A stretch of DNA of 38,486 bases. Origin: Alphaproteobacteria bacterium. GTDB taxonomy: Bacteria > Pseudomonadota > Alphaproteobacteria > UBA7985 > JAUIBT01. Positions 2,128 through 28,442 of this stretch are shown here, one piece after another; position 1 is the stretch's first letter; every line of letters starts with the position of its first letter. A program made the translations under genes and the position numbers. The stretch lies in the NCBI GenBank assembly GCA_030428565.1, contig JAUIDR010000032.1, positions 1 through 38,486 of the forward strand. The letters run 5' to 3'. The notes beneath the pieces are model-generated. The model was not told the DNA's origin. It saw only the letters and a program-made list of their open reading frames with translations, and made no database searches.

Positions 2128-5100
2128 ATTCTCCCGCTGCGGCTTCGTCGGCGGACAAGCTGGCGGCCGGTCGGCTCGCGCCCTGCCCGCGTCCGCCACC
2201 CAGGGCACGCCGCAGCACTTGGCCGACATCTTCAAAGATAGCCAGCAGTGCCGGAACGAAGACCAAGACGACCAGCGTCGCAAAGGCCAAGCCAAACACA
2301 ATGACAACCGCCATTGGTATCAGGAACTTGGCCTGGCGACTGGTCTCGAACAGCATGGGCGTCAGGCCGCCAATGGTCGTGGTTGTGGTCAACAGCACGG
2401 CGCGCAAGCGCTCGGCCGACCCTTCAACGATGGCTTGGTAGACCGGTAGCCGCTGCCTCAGCTCATTGATGGTTGAGACCAATATAATCGAGTCATTGAC
2501 GATAATGCCCGACAGGCCCGCCAACGCGATCAGCGCCAGGAAGGACAAGGGATAGCCCAGCCAATAGAGGCCAGCCGCGGCCCCAACAAAGCCAAAGGGA
2601 ATCGACAACAAAACAATCACTGGCTGGGCGTAGGAGCCGAAAACCCAGGCCAGAATGACGTACATGGTCACAAGCGCCACAATGACCGCAGTGCGAAAAT
2701 CGCTGAAAGCCTCGCGCTGTTCTTCGGCTTCGCCCGCAAAGCGCCAGCTCAGCCCGGCGCGCTCGACCAACCCGCCGATGCCGCGCTGCTTGAGCTTTTC
2801 AATCGCTTCGTTGGCGTCGCCCTCTTCATCCACCAGATCGGCTGTGACCGAAATCAAGCGCTGTCCATCCTCGCGCAAAATTTGCGATAAGCCGACCTTG
2901 TCCTCGATCGTCGCAATATCACTTAGGCGCAGAAGATCACCGTTGTTGCTCACAATAGTCACGTCGCCCAGCGCCAGGTCTTGCGATTCGGCCTCCGCGA
3001 GCCGGAGCAATATTGGAGTCTCCTGATCGCCGCGCTGCAAGCGCTCGACCTCAATGCCTTCAATCGCACTGCGCAGTTGGCGTCCGACTTGCTCCAACGA
3101 TAACCCCAGCGCACGGCCCTGGCGATTGAGACGGATAATCTTTTCAGGCGTACCGTAGGGCAGATCGTCTTGGATCGCGTCCAGGCCCGGAACCTCCGCC
3201 ATCAATCCTTGCACCTGCAAGGAAGCCTGCTTTAGCCGTTCGATATCTGGCCCAATGATCTCAAAGTCGATATCGGTCGCCGAGCCGCCAAAGCGGCCGC
3301 GCCGCGTTACCAGAGACTCCACAGCTCCAACCCGGTTGATTTCCTGCGTCCAGATCCGCACCAAATCTCGGTTGGGAAAACGGCGGTCATCGGCAGGCAC
3401 CAACTCGGCCGAAATGCGGCCCGAACCGCTGCCGTTCACCTCGGCGAGCAGCATATCCACCACAGGGTGCTTGCCCTCGATGCGGCGCGCCTCAACGAAG
3501 GCCGGATCGCTGGGCTGGTCGTCCAGCACCTTGTCCATGGCGACCCAAAAAGCGCGCTCCATTTCCTTGACCATGGTTTGGGTCTGCTCGCGGCTGGCCC
3601 CTGCCACCATACGCACTTGCTGACTCACGCGCTCACCATCGGGCACGGAAAAGAAGGTGAAGGGCAGGGTTCCGCTGCTCACCATAGCCACCGCCCACAA
3701 CAGGCTGAGCAAGGTGAGCGCCACCACGCCATAGCGCAGTTTGACCGCCAGAACGACGACCGGGCGGAACATGCGTTCGCGGAAAAAGCGAAAGCCGTTG
3801 TCGATGCCTGCCCGCAGCGCGGTTGGGCGGTCGCGGGTCTTCTCGAGCGCGCCCAACGAGTGACGCATGTGCCCCGGCAGCACGAAAAAGCACTCGATCA
3901 GCGACGCCAAAATGACGATGGAGACCACCATGGGAATATCCGCCATGAAGCGGCCCATAAAGCCGCCGATCAGCAGCAGCGGCGCAAAGGCCGCCACCGT
4001 AGTAAGCGAGGAGGACAAGACGGGAAAGAACATGCGCTTGGCCCCGCCAATCGCGGCATCCTCAGCACTCGCCCCGCGCCTAAACATCGTTTCGGAGTGC
4101 TCAGAGACAACGATGGCATCGTCAACAATGATGCCCAGCGTGAGCAGCATGGCAAAGACCGAGATCATGTTGATGGTCAGGTTCATCATCAACATGATGG
4201 CCACCGTCACCAAAAGCGCGGTCGGAATGCCGGCAGCGACCCAAATCGCGCTGCGGGTGTTCATAAAGACGAACAACACCAACAGCACCAGCACCATACC
4301 CCCGACACCGTTTTTCAACAACAGACCGATGCGCGCGCGCAGGTAGTCGGTGCGCTTGGAGTACTGCTCGACCTTCAGCGTTTCCGGCGCGCTGGCCTGC
4401 CATTCAGCCAGCTTCTTATCGACGATTGCCGCCGACTTCAGCGAATCGGCGGTCAAGGAGCGCTCGATTTCCAGTTCCACCGCAGGGTTGCCGTCGCGGA
4501 AAAGCTGCGTCTGGTCAGGGTCATATATTTGCCGGACCTGGGCCAGCTCGCCCAACGTGATTTTGGCCCCGGAACGTTCGGAGACGATCTCGATTTCTCG
4601 CAAATCACGCTCACCTTGAATTCGTCCCAACGAGCGCACGAGCGAGCGCCCATCGCCAATTTCTCCAGCGGGAATATCGCTGGAGGCCGCCCGCACTTGC
4701 TGAGCGACTTGATCCAAGGTCAGCCCCAGTTTGCGCAGCGTATAGTTCGAGACCTCGGCGACGATCTGTTGCTCGCGCACCCCGCGCAGCGCCACGCGGT
4801 CGATGCCAGCATTCAGCAATTCATCGCGAAGATTGAGGCCCCATTGCTGCAAGGCCGCCTCGCTATATGGCCCCGACAAGACGAGCCGTGAAATCGTTTC
4901 ATAGCGCAGGGCCTGACTGGCGCGCGGCTCCTCTGCGCCCTCGGGCAGACTTGAGACCTGCGACAGCGCGGTTTCGACCTCAGACAGGGCCTGCTGCATA
5001 TCTGTGCCGGGTTGATAGAATAGCGTAATCCGCGCCGAGCCCGTTGTAGAGCTGGAACTAATGGTCTCCACCTTGTCCAAAAAGCGCAATTGCGGCTCCA

Positions 5101-20439: not shown

Positions 20440-20800
20440 GACCTGGATATGGGGAGGCCAACCGTCGCCTGCAAAGCAGTTTTCCCCGCCTTTTGCCCCT
20501 GCAAACGCAAGAATTTGCTAAAAATGGACCTCTTCGGTCGCGATTCATGCCTGGCCGCGACGCATTTGGGCCGCAGGGCCTATTCAGCCGCCGTCAACAA
20601 TTGCTTTGCACTGCGAAAAAATGACCATCTGGAATGCGCAGCAGGCGCTTGCGGGTCCGTGACTCCTGTGGTAGCTCCACCCTCACATTGAAGCCGGTAC
20701 AACTGCGCCCGGACCCGTCGCCTTGTCTATAGGTCGCCTGGTCCAAGAGGCAAAACACCCCCACCTGCTTCGTCAGCGTTTTAACCTTAAGGAAGAGCTT
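20440..20800. other. Divergent mutL / atpH intergenic region
   Basis: 361 bp that must hold the promoters of mutL (minus) and of the atp operon (plus). I could not identify a convincing -35/-10 pair on either strand. A box TTTGCACTGCGAA near 20612-20624 resembles the TGC-rich boxes in front of the phasin gene but lacks the closing GCACA. An in-frame ATG at 20723 would add 26 unlikely residues to AtpH. Confidence 0.5.
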
Positions 20801-22893
<2,093 letters not shown>

Positions 22894-22924: not shown

Positions 22925-23806
22925 ATGGCAAGCTTAAAGGATCTGAAGAACCGTATTGGTTCGGTCAAGAACACGCGCAAAATCACCTCTGCCATGAAAA
23001 TGGTGGCGGCGGCTAAGCTGCGTCGCGCGCAAGAGCAAGCCGAAGCCGGCCGGCCCTTCGCAGAGCGCATGGATGCCGTATTGGCTTCGTTGGCAGCCTC
23101 GGCTGCCTCGAACCCTGGCGCGCCCAAGCTTCTGGCGGGTACCGGTAGCGAGCAAAAGCACCTTATCGTGCTGGCGACCGCCGACCGTGGCCTTTGTGGT
23201 GGCTTTAACGCCTACCTGATCAAAGAAGCCATGACGTTGCGTTCGGAGCTGTTGGCTGAAGGCAAGAGCGTGCAGTTCGTCACCGTCGGTCGCAAGGCAC
23301 GCGATGCGGTCCGCCGCGTCGATGAGGCCGCTTTGGTCGAGTCTTTCATCGAAATGGACCGCCCGAACCTGAACTACGACAAGGCCCAAGAGGTTTCGGC
23401 CAAGGTCTTGGAACTGTTTGAGGCAGGCGCCTTTGATGTCTGTACCTTGGTCTATTCGCGCTTTCAGTCGGCGATCGCTCAGATCCCGACCCGTCAGCAA
23501 CTGATCCCCTTCGCTGTGCCTGAAGGCGCAGAGGCGACCAGCGGCTCGTCGGCGGTGTACGAATATGAGCCTTCAGAAGAAGCGGTTCTGGCCAGCCTGT
23601 TGCCCCAGAATATTTCGGTCCAGATCTTCAAAGGTCTGCTGGAAAATCAGGCTTCAGAGCAAGGTGCGCGTATGTCCGCGATGGACAACGCAACCCGCAA
23701 CGCGGGCGAAATGATCGACAAACTGACCCTGTTGTACAACCGTACTCGTCAGGCTCAGATCACCAAAGAGTTGATCGAAATCGTCTCTGGTGCGGAGGCC
23801 CTGTAA
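22925..23806 (+). CDS. atpG: ATP synthase F1 subunit gamma
   Basis: The rotating central shaft of F1. 293 residues, normal for the family. The N-terminus [20 protein letters not shown] and the segment [15 protein letters not shown] form the first coiled-coil helix. The C-terminal helix contains the family signature ([40 protein letters not shown], given here in part as [18 protein letters not shown]). The next gene is normally atpD. Here pyrE starts at the base after the TAA stop, so gamma and beta are separated by 667 bp. Confidence 0.98.
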
Positions 23807-24394
23807 TTGGCCACCGCGACCTGGAACTCCGCTGCTCGTGAGCAGCTTCGCGCCATCATTGCGCAGCGGTCTTTCAGGACAGGCGAGGAGTTTACCCTCG
23901 CTTCAGGAAAAAAGAGCATGGTCTTCTTTGACCTAAAGAAGACCATGCTCGACCCCGAAGGCTCCTACCTGGCCGCATTGGGACTGCTGGATACCATCCA
24001 GAACCACTTTGCCAAGGCCACTACCTTCGGCGGACTAGAATTGGGGGCTGTCCCTGCGGTCAGCCAGGTTTGCGCATTGAGCCATCAGCTCGGCCAACCT
24101 CTGCCCGCCTTTATCGTGCGCAAGACCGTGAAAGATCACGGCACACAAGCCGCGATCGAAGGCGATCTGCCCGCGGGTAGCAAAGCCTTGGTGTTCGATG
24201 ATGTGACGACCACCGGCGGCTCTGCGATGAAAGCCATTGAGGCGTTGCGCGCGTCCTCAGGCGTCGAAGTTATCGGCGTGGTGAGCTTGGTTGACCGCCT
24301 AGAGGGCGCGTCGGAAGCCTTCAAAGCTCAGTACGGCGATGCCTTCGGGTTTCAGTCGCTGTTTGATAAGTCGGATTTCACCGACCTTATCTAA
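23807..24394 (+). CDS. pyrE: Orotate phosphoribosyltransferase inserted in the atp operon
   Basis: Converts orotate and PRPP to OMP in pyrimidine synthesis. 195 residues. Family features: GEEFTLASGKKSMVFFDLKK near the N-terminus, GGLELGAVPAVS, the catalytic Arg-Lys-Lys segment FIVRKTVKDHGTQ (R105, K106, K109) and the PRPP loop KALVFDDVTTTGGS (116-129). It matches the alphaproteobacterial type with 'FTLASG'. The frame begins at TTG 23807, directly after the atpG stop (TAATTG), with GGAGG 8 bp upstream inside atpG; no later ATG would keep the N-terminal helix. The gene lies between atpG and atpD, where almost all bacteria have no gene. The 79-bp gap to atpD holds two hairpins. Confidence 0.93.
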   Translation: MATATWNSAAREQLRAIIAQRSFRTGEEFTLASGKKSMVFFDLKKTMLDPEGSYLAALGLLDTIQNHFAKATTFGGLELGAVPAVSQVCALSHQLGQPLPAFIVRKTVKDHGTQAAIEGDLPAGSKALVFDDVTTTGGSAMKAIEALRASSGVEVIGVVSLVDRLEGASEAFKAQYGDAFGFQSLFDKSDFTDLI

Positions 24395-24398
24395 CAGG

Positions 24399-24449
24399 GC
24401 CCTGGACTTGCAGGGCGTACAGTTTTTGCCCGGTGCCGTCGCGCCGGGC
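24399..24449 (+). promoter_or_regulatory. Two hairpins between pyrE and atpD
   Basis: Hairpin 1 is GCCCTG-GACTTG-CAGGGC (24399-24416), followed by GTACAGTTTTT, which looks like a weak intrinsic terminator. Hairpin 2 is GCCCGGTGC-CGTC-GCGCCGGGC (24428-24449), a 9-bp stem with one wobble pair and a tetraloop. The atpD ATG is at 24474 with GGAG upstream. They may make a partial terminator, an RNA processing site or a stability element that lets pyrE and atpD be expressed at different levels (inference). Confidence 0.55.
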
Positions 24450-24461
24450 CTCGGACACTAA

Positions 24462-25895
<1,434 letters not shown>

Positions 25896-26038: not shown

Positions 26039-26308
26039 ATGTCTACAACCACCCTGGAAATCGTCACGCCCGAGCGCTTGGTCCTAAGCGAGGCTGTCGA
26101 GTTGGTCGTTGTTCCTGGTGCCGATGGCGACCTGGGTGTACGCCCACGCCACGCCCCGACCATTGCTTCGCTGCGTGATGGCGTTGTGCGCATCTTTGCT
26201 AAGGGCCTCAGCGCTGGTGAGACCGCGCGCTACCAAGTCTCTGGCGGTTTCGTTGACGTGACCCCGGAAACCTGTCGCGTTTTGTGCGAGCACGCTGAAG
26301 CGGTCTAA
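26039..26308 (+). CDS. atpC: ATP synthase F1 subunit epsilon, short form
   Basis: An 89-residue protein that matches only the N-terminal beta-sandwich of epsilon (LEIVTPERLVLSEAVELVVVPGADGDLGVRPRHAPTIASLRDGVVRI). This domain binds the gamma-c ring foot. The C-terminal two-helix inhibitory domain found in epsilon proteins of about 130 residues is absent: the frame stops at TAA 26306-26308, and the following 75 bp before the terminator show no helix-coding frame. Other bacteria, including some alphaproteobacteria, also have short epsilon, where another protein (zeta) inhibits ATP hydrolysis. So this is probably functional. Confidence 0.93.
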   Translation: MSTTTLEIVTPERLVLSEAVELVVVPGADGDLGVRPRHAPTIASLRDGVVRIFAKGLSAGETARYQVSGGFVDVTPETCRVLCEHAEAV

Positions 26309-26383
26309 TGATGCGCGGGCCTTGCGCGCCCTGAATGCCGCTCGGCCAATGCTACCAAGGCCGTCTAGACCGATAGATATCAG

Positions 26384-26418
26384 AAAGCCCGATCCAAATG
26401 GACCGGGCTTTTTGTTTT
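26384..26418 (+). terminator. Intrinsic terminator of the atp operon
   Basis: AAAGCCCGATCC and GGACCGGGCTTT pair over 12 positions with one mismatch around an AAAT loop, followed by TTTTTGTTTT-type sequence. It is 75 bp after the atpC stop. The CoA-transferase gene runs toward it from the other strand and ends at 26505. Confidence 0.9.
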
Positions 26419-26504
26419 GTGGGGATCGTCAAGCCCGCGCCAACTGGGCGCTTCAAGGGCGCCCATCGCGAGCACTCTTCACACCTGCCGCTTGTTTTAG
26501 GCCC

Positions 26505-28442
26505 TTAGACCGACCGATGATCGGCCATATAGGCTTCGGCCTCGGCTTGGGTCTCGAAGATATGCGGGCGGATTGAACGGTCTTTGAGACCGGAACCCAA
26601 CTTCTGGCGCATGAAGGCCGAGGTGGTGTAGCGGGTCGCCGTGATGTAGTACTTTTCTTCCAGCTCACGCAGGAAATCGGCATAGCCCTGATAGACGTCC
26701 TGGCCGATCTCGACCCCGTCATAGTTCGAGATAATATCGACCCGCTGGCCAATGCTCTCAAAGAAGCGGCGCAGCGAGCGCTTTACGGTGGTCAAATCTT
26801 CCGGCGTGACAATGGCAAGGCCCGACAAATCCGCATAGACCGTATTGTTCTCGGCTTTATAAACAAATCGATCCAACAGGCGGCGATCCATCATGCTGGC
26901 CTTCAGCTTCATGGGCTTTTTGCGGAAGATGCGCTCTTCCATCGTGCGTACATCGCGGATAATGGGACGGAAGGACATGAGGTCCAAAACGTCCTTTTGC
27001 AGGTCGATGCCCGGCGCAACCTCGGTCAGCTCCAGGCCGTCCTTGGTCAGACGGAAGACCGCACGCTCGGTGATGTATTGCACATCTTGCCCACGGCTGG
27101 CGGCATAGGCCCCATTGAAGGTAATCTGCTCAACCTGGTCGATGAACTTGGTCATGCGGCCTTCTTTGTTGATCGTCAGATTGCCCCCCTTGACCGTGCA
27201 GTCAAAGCCGCCTGCGGTAAAGGTGCCGACAAAAACCAGCTTGCGCGCGTTTTGGGAAATGTTGATGAAGCCCCCAGCGCCCGCCAGGCGATCCTTAAAG
27301 CGCGAGACGTTGACGTTACCGTGCTGGTCCACCTCAGCCATGCCCAAGCAAGCCAGGTCGAGGCCGCCGCCATCGTAGTAGTCGAATTGCTGGTTGGTCT
27401 GGATGATGGAGGCCGCATTGATCGCCGCGCCAAAATCCAGGCCCGACTGGGGGACACCGCCGATGATACCCGCCTCTGCGGTTAGCGTGATATTGTTGAT
27501 GATACCTTCTTCATTGGCCACCGCCGATACGCCCTCGGGCATACCGATGCCCAGATTGACCACGCCGTTGATCGGCAGCTCAAAGGCCGCGCGGCGCGCA
27601 ATCACTTTACGCTGATCCAATTCCATTGGCGGCAAGCGATCTACTACCGCACGAATACGGCCGGTGAAAGCGTGGTTATAGCTCGAGGCGTAGGTCTGTT
27701 GGTGCTCGGGGCGTTCGACCTGAACCACGCAATCGACCAAGTTGCCGGGCACCTGCACTTCCTTGGGCGCGAGCGAGCCAGGCGCTGCGATCTGCTCCAC
27801 TTGCGCGATGACCAGACCGCCTGAGTTCTTGGCCGCCATAGCGATCGGAAGGTTATCCAATACCAGCGCCTCACGCTCCATGGTGATGTTACCGTGCGTG
27901 TCCGCCGTGGTGCCGCGGATGAAAGCAACGTCGATTGGGATCGACTTATAGAACAGCCACTCCTGGCCCGCGATTTCCTGCAACTCGACCAGCTCTTCTA
28001 GGCTGCGCTCGTTGATCGCCCCGCCGGATTGGCGCGGGTCAACGAAGGTATGCAGGCCCACTTTGGAGAACATGCCGGGCTTGCCCGCCGCGATATCGCG
28101 ATAGAGCTGAGAAATACAGCCAAGCGGCAGATTATAGGCCTCAATCTGGTTTTCCACCGCCAGCTTGCCCAGCTTGGGGATCAGCGACCAGTGCCCGCCG
28201 ATGGCGCGCTTGACCAGCCCTGGATGCGCTAAGCGGTTCAGGCCCTTGTCCTTCCCGTTACCGGGAGCAGCGGCGAACAGTAAGGAGATGTCCTTGGGCG
28301 CGGCTTTGGCCAAAAAGCTCTCCTCGACCCCGCGCAGCAGCGCTTCGGGGGTGCCAATACCGACAAACCCCGAGACACAAACGGTATCCCCGTCCGCAAT
28401 CACGGCAATCGCGTCTTCTAAGCTAACGACTTTATCAACCAT
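26505..28442 (-). CDS. Fused acyl-CoA:acetate/3-ketoacid CoA-transferase (YdiF/propionate CoA-transferase-like)
   Basis: Moves CoA between acyl-CoAs and short carboxylic acids through a glutamyl-CoA intermediate. The alpha half starts MVDKVVSLEDAIAVIADGDTV, with the GFVGIGTPE glycine loop. The beta half contains LGIGMPEGVSAVANEEG and the probable catalytic Glu in LTAEAGIIGGVPQSG. At 645 residues it is about 110-120 longer than family members of 520-530. The extra C-terminal part (about 530-645, from VYADLSGLAIVTPEDL on) is soluble and of unknown role. It lies 67 bp after phaC in the same orientation, so CoA exchange is probably tied to PHA precursor supply or polymer recycling. The exact substrate is not determinable. 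Confidence 0.85.
   Translation of the reverse strand: MVDKVVSLEDAIAVIADGDTVCVSGFVGIGTPEALLRGVEESFLAKAAPKDISLLFAAAPGNGKDKGLNRLAHPGLVKRAIGGHWSLIPKLGKLAVENQIEAYNLPLGCISQLYRDIAAGKPGMFSKVGLHTFVDPRQSGGAINERSLEELVELQEIAGQEWLFYKSIPIDVAFIRGTTADTHGNITMEREALVLDNLPIAMAAKNSGGLVIAQVEQIAAPGSLAPKEVQVPGNLVDCVVQVERPEHQQTYASSYNHAFTGRIRAVVDRLPPMELDQRKVIARRAAFELPINGVVNLGIGMPEGVSAVANEEGIINNITLTAEAGIIGGVPQSGLDFGAAINAASIIQTNQQFDYYDGGGLDLACLGMAEVDQHGNVNVSRFKDRLAGAGGFINISQNARKLVFVGTFTAGGFDCTVKGGNLTINKEGRMTKFIDQVEQITFNGAYAASRGQDVQYITERAVFRLTKDGLELTEVAPGIDLQKDVLDLMSFRPIIRDVRTMEERIFRKKPMKLKASMMDRRLLDRFVYKAENNTVYADLSGLAIVTPEDLTTVKRSLRRFFESIGQRVDIISNYDGVEIGQDVYQGYADFLRELEEKYYITATRYTTSAFMRQKLGSGLKDRSIRPHIFETQAEAEAYMADHRSV

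Follow-up and report, generated by a model that had tools for sequence, protein, structure and literature searches.

Few gene neighbourhoods are as well conserved across bacteria as the junction between the gamma (atpG) and beta (atpD) genes of the F1 ATP synthase. In the atp operon of Rhodopseudomonas blastica, an unidentified ORF ('gene X', not known to be pyrE) lies between the two genes. The literature searched contained nothing relevant on pyrE in atp operons, nor on gene X. The F1 unit is apart from Fo in 89.1% of Alphaproteobacteria (PMC5709465), and a truncated epsilon subunit is already known from this class (PMC9317440).

Organization of the atp cluster

The whole stretch of DNA analysed (38,486 nucleotides, hereafter the window) carries the five F1 genes on one strand in the fixed order atpHAGDC, apart from an inserted pyrE (Table 1). 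Thus, atpG and atpD are not adjacent but are separated by an interval of 670 b which contains pyrE. The TTG start listed for atpH is probably too far upstream, as the match in the sister genome (G002) begins at residue 18. At the distal end, atpC encodes 89 amino acids in both congeners and 132 to 135 in two order-mates (G005 and G004); the window gene is without the C-terminal helical domain of epsilon.

Table 1. Features of the interrupted atp cluster, in positions of the window
Feature	Position	Strand	Remarks
atpH (delta/OSCP), first cluster gene	20723..21361	+	PF00213, 3.6e-47
atpA (alpha)	21358..22893	+	ORF; tblastn across relatives, 95% identical in sister G002
atpG (gamma)	22925..23806	+	PF00231, 1.3e-100; NF004146, 449 bits
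Shine-Dalgarno-like GGAGG	23794..23798	+	Within last atpG codons (SGAEAL), 8 nt before pyrE TTG
pyrE (orotate phosphoribosyltransferase)	23807..24394	+	TIGR00336; TTG start, in frame with atpG
Perfect inverted repeat inside pyrE	23914..23950	+	Arms 16, loop 5; terminator-like on minus strand (T6)
pyrE-atpD spacer	24395..24473	+	Two predicted hairpins, then atpD ribosome site
atpD (beta)	24474..25895	+	PF00006, 1.9e-70; 97% identical in sister G002
atpC (epsilon)	26039..26308	+	PF02823; 89 aa

The coordinates of atpG and atpD were paired in 101 alphaproteobacterial genomes among the best-scoring matches listed, which are not a random sample. The two genes were a median of 47 b apart, and the separation was ≤ 158 b in 98 of these genomes; the exceptions were the window genome (G000, 670 b), its sister (G002, 667 b) and a member of another alphaproteobacterial family (G110, 797 b). 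In the order-mates, which belong to two families (f2 and f3), the spacers were 35 to 78 b. A first, sequence-only reading of this DNA had taken pyrE between gamma and beta to be rare, and comparison of neighbourhoods bears this out. The same reading had raised the prospect of finding this order throughout the taxonomic order, which is ruled out since the order-mates are uninterrupted. It is clear that the arrangement is real, rare and lineage-specific, and that a known essential enzyme gene occupies a new operon position.

In G110, a 147-aa ORF (3004-3447) that matches nothing in Pfam or NCBIfam occupies the atpG-atpD junction (L065:2775-3562), and pyrE of that genome is on a different contig.

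The inserted gene encodes orotate phosphoribosyltransferase

The window protein scores 137.1 bits against the pyrE profile TIGR00336 (curated cut-off 106.8 bits). Its catalytic loop (R105-K106-x-x-K109-x-H111) and its PRPP loop (VFDDVTTTGGS) are both conserved over 47 homologues. In an alignment of 22 relatives the residues R105, K106, K109 and D132 do not vary, and H111 hardly does. At the site corresponding to Lys26 of the Escherichia coli enzyme there is Ala in the window protein and Ser in that of Mycobacterium tuberculosis. An AlphaFold model (pLDDT 91.4, pTM 0.88) found the M. tuberculosis orotate phosphoribosyltransferase (OPRT) as its best PDB match by Foldseek (E 6.8e-19), and the top PDB matches were OPRTs (TMq 0.70 to 0.82); phmmer agrees (5hkf, 2.3e-24). 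No extra domain or odd feature was seen in the predicted structure or by Foldseek. Judged by profile, motifs and model, the ORF is a genuine OPRT gene with predicted activity, as had been proposed from its catalytic Lys and PRPP-loop residues.

This is probably the only OPRT of the organism, as a search for a second pyrE, proposed in the sequence-only reading, left a single gene above the cut-off in the window genome (a draft of 114 contigs, 99.2% complete). Two weak sub-threshold candidates were rejected, being an adenine phosphoribosyltransferase (apt) and a ComF-like protein (comF). As pyrC and pyrF are also present, the genome encodes the final steps leading to UMP.

Conservation in a sister species

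The sister genome (to which both L005 and L034 belong) has the order atpH-A-G-pyrE-D-C, identical to that of the window, with amino acid identities of 87% for pyrE, 95% for atpG and 97% for atpD. Its pyrE starts with GTG, again straight after TAA. In a third congener (G001, 86% complete) the matching contig starts just beyond the position of atpC, so the operon is not covered; the arrangement is therefore known from two genomes of the genus, G002 being the sole other evaluable one. Between window and sister, dN/dS of pyrE is 0.105 with a dS of 0.90 (atpG 0.99, atpD 0.48), and pyrE has a GC3 of 0.70, like the neighbouring genes. By these values pyrE is under purifying selection, and it has been in place since the split of the two species. 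That it is a pseudogene is ruled out by the dN/dS together with the intact motifs.

The sister genome also has approximately 5.2 kb of additional DNA between atpC and a CoA-transferase gene (G002:C35:9528-14741, corresponding to 26308-26505 of the window).

Start, ribosome site and expression of pyrE

The 195-aa PyrE is read from a TTG that directly follows the atpG stop (TAA, 23804-23806) with a spacing of 0 nt. In addition, and absent from the sequence-only reading, pyrE shares the reading frame of atpG, so that a single TAA divides the two ORFs. The C-terminal peptide of atpG is nearly identical in 14 of 14 genomes checked. In both pyrE-bearing genomes GCG GAG followed by GCC at the end of atpG creates GGAGG 8 nt ahead of the pyrE start, whereas the codons at this place give GGAG in none of the 12 genomes without pyrE, with nearly the same C-terminus. 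This use of synonymous codons favours a real ribosome site and suggests termination-reinitiation or tight translational coupling.

Between atpG and atpD the search of the window gave no promoter-like site and, on the plus strand, no terminator-like site, and this, with the gene spacing, agrees with a single polycistronic mRNA, which would span atpG-pyrE-atpD. Expression of pyrE within the operon is supported by purifying selection, host-like GC3 and a Shine-Dalgarno sequence (SD) built from synonymous codons unique to pyrE-bearing genomes. The sequence-only reading had placed pyrE at 23807-24394, its TTG directly behind the atpG stop and its ribosome site inside atpG; all three hold, the last as GGAGG at 23794-23798, conserved in the sister. 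The co-expression it proposed is probable, given the common strand, the 0-nt spacing, the SD in atpG, the lack of a second OPRT and the lack of an intervening promoter- or terminator-like site.

A hairpin within pyrE

No inverted repeat in the window is longer than the one at 23914-23950, and in 30 sequences simulated from a Markov model of the window the arms were ≤ 11. Its predicted RNA fold has a z of -6.85, and an imperfect counterpart in the sister a z of -4.76. The differences between the two include one compensatory synonymous change (T:A to C:G), and other homologues lack the hairpin (arms ≤ 7 bp). It may be regulatory, it may be an antisense terminator, since its minus strand resembles an intrinsic terminator, or it may be a product of quasipalindrome correction. 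The last is considered because the arm that differs in the sister pairs exactly with its partner in the window.

Hairpins are also predicted in the atpG-atpD spacers of order-mates. None of the intergenic hairpins before atpD, in the window or in its relatives, was significant against shuffled sequences, and no function is claimed for them. No Rfam match was found within the window. Hairpins could partly uncouple expression of segments of the operon.

Origin of pyrE

The PyrE proteins of the order-mates are of the long PRK00455 type (346 to 360 bits), whereas the window protein scores 57.3 bits against the long-type model (NF001729/PRK00455.1-3) and fails its cut-off of 245. The window and sister sequences group with the short type in a tree built from 69 PyrE proteins, where the order-mates are placed in a separate clade (support 100/97). 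The short-type relatives in Alphaproteobacteria are 44 to 53% identical to the window protein, and in a draw of 398 genomes from the phylum close matches were confined to this class. As the nearest neighbour in the tree (L084) is joined with modest support (85/69) and a branch of 1.52 to the genus, no donor is named. In two order-mates (G003 and G005) pyrE is adjacent to pyrC (dihydroorotase), while neither pyrE nor a recognisable remnant lies beside pyrC in the window genome or its sister.

PyrF shows a similar division. In the window genome (G000:C33:588-1322; L148:555-1322, minus strand) and its sister (L147:1501-2268) it belongs to pyrF_sub2 (TIGR02127), and in the order-mate G005 to the classical PRK00230 type. 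Both terminal UMP enzymes of the genus are thus, by profile, different in kind from those of order-mates. For an ORF upstream of pyrF in the window genome (L148:1338-2798), the match to the large subunit of glutamate synthase is confined to its C-terminal third (587 bits, cut-off 1047); possibly the ORF is a truncated domain, a stand-alone one or an ORF cut by the contig.

Interpretation

The reading that we prefer, with a probability of about 0.75, is that the sole-copy OPRT gene is a laterally acquired short type which replaced the PRK00455 type, was inserted behind atpG and is read in one atpHAG-pyrE-DC message. It starts from the observed gene order, single copy, conservation in the sister, two types of PyrE, purifying selection and SD of synonymous codons; from these we infer one mRNA, reinitiation and a lateral origin. 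A short alphaproteobacterial PyrE would have arrived laterally, displaced the PRK00455-type PyrE still kept by order-mates, and entered between the atpG stop and the former atpG-atpD spacer in an ancestor of the two species sampled. Transcribed within the single message, pyrE would be started by ribosomes ending atpG, via GGAGG in the end of atpG and TTG or GTG, and the supply of PyrE would then track expression of a housekeeping operon. Other than shared expression, no tie to ATP synthase, physical or regulatory, is proposed here.

A fusion of pyrE to the atp cluster by faulty assembly or binning might be suspected in a draft of so many contigs, and a break at 23.7-24.5 kb had been raised as a concern in the sequence-only reading. 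This explanation can practically be dismissed: the same order in G002 shows that the arrangement is not an assembly error, since the identical junctions come from the assembly of another species with a pyrE of 87% amino acid identity, and moreover GC and GC3 of pyrE match those of its neighbours and the SD is adapted at the end of atpG. As to how the gene came there, the deep difference from the PyrE of order-mates makes lateral replacement with insertion behind atpG the likeliest course, and replacement is the simplest reading of these protein types, differential loss being the main alternative. In a vertical origin, an ancestor would have had both types, the genus keeping the short and families f2 and f3 the long, after which a rearrangement brought the short gene into the atp operon. 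The wide occurrence of both types in Alphaproteobacteria fits such a history, but they occur together in none of the members of the order examined, and we regard it as unlikely.

The position of pyrE may also be asked to explain more than its expression. Selection might have placed it in the F1 operon so that pyrimidine supply scales with ATP synthase or with PRPP/ATP, and PyrE and F1 subunits might even associate during translation. Its persistence in two well-diverged species (dS about 0.5 to 1.0), with SD and start region conserved, speaks for such adaptive coupling. However, the arrangement is confined to one genus, the protein has no additional domain or odd feature, and an essential gene that could leave the operon only by a second rearrangement would be retained in any case; we therefore hold the idea to be quite improbable. 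Still less probable is a regulatory role of the pyrE segment within the atp mRNA, its hairpin of -33 kcal/mol (codons 36-48, imperfect in the sister) controlling mRNA processing or passage of ribosomes and so linking pyrimidine state to the gamma:beta ratio. A special coupling of energy and pyrimidines, such as the functional link of UTP/CTP synthesis to ATP synthase inferred in the sequence-only reading, is unnecessary for these data, and a replaced essential gene in a housekeeping operon is the simpler account.

Read as a replacement, the locus is a clean case of how a replaced essential gene may come to be expressed from a stoichiometric operon already in place, here through an SD that synonymous changes in atpG, the gene upstream, have apparently created. 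It also bears on whether an insertion shifts the gamma:beta ratio.

Comparison with known systems

The window resembles the alphaproteobacterial atpHAGDC F1 operon in its five genes, their order and their strand, but has pyrE where the gamma-beta spacer is usually 16 to 158 b in the class sample. The same junction is interrupted in G110, but by an ORF unrelated to pyrE. Gene X of R. blastica is likewise a foreign gene at this junction, but is not known to be pyrE. With short-type PyrE, such as that of Hyphomicrobium and the M. tuberculosis OPRT (5hkf/5hki), the window protein has in common the full-length fold, the PRPP loop and the RK..K.H loop. Elsewhere, no atpG lies beside the short-type gene among the matches listed, whereas in the window it sits in the atp operon.
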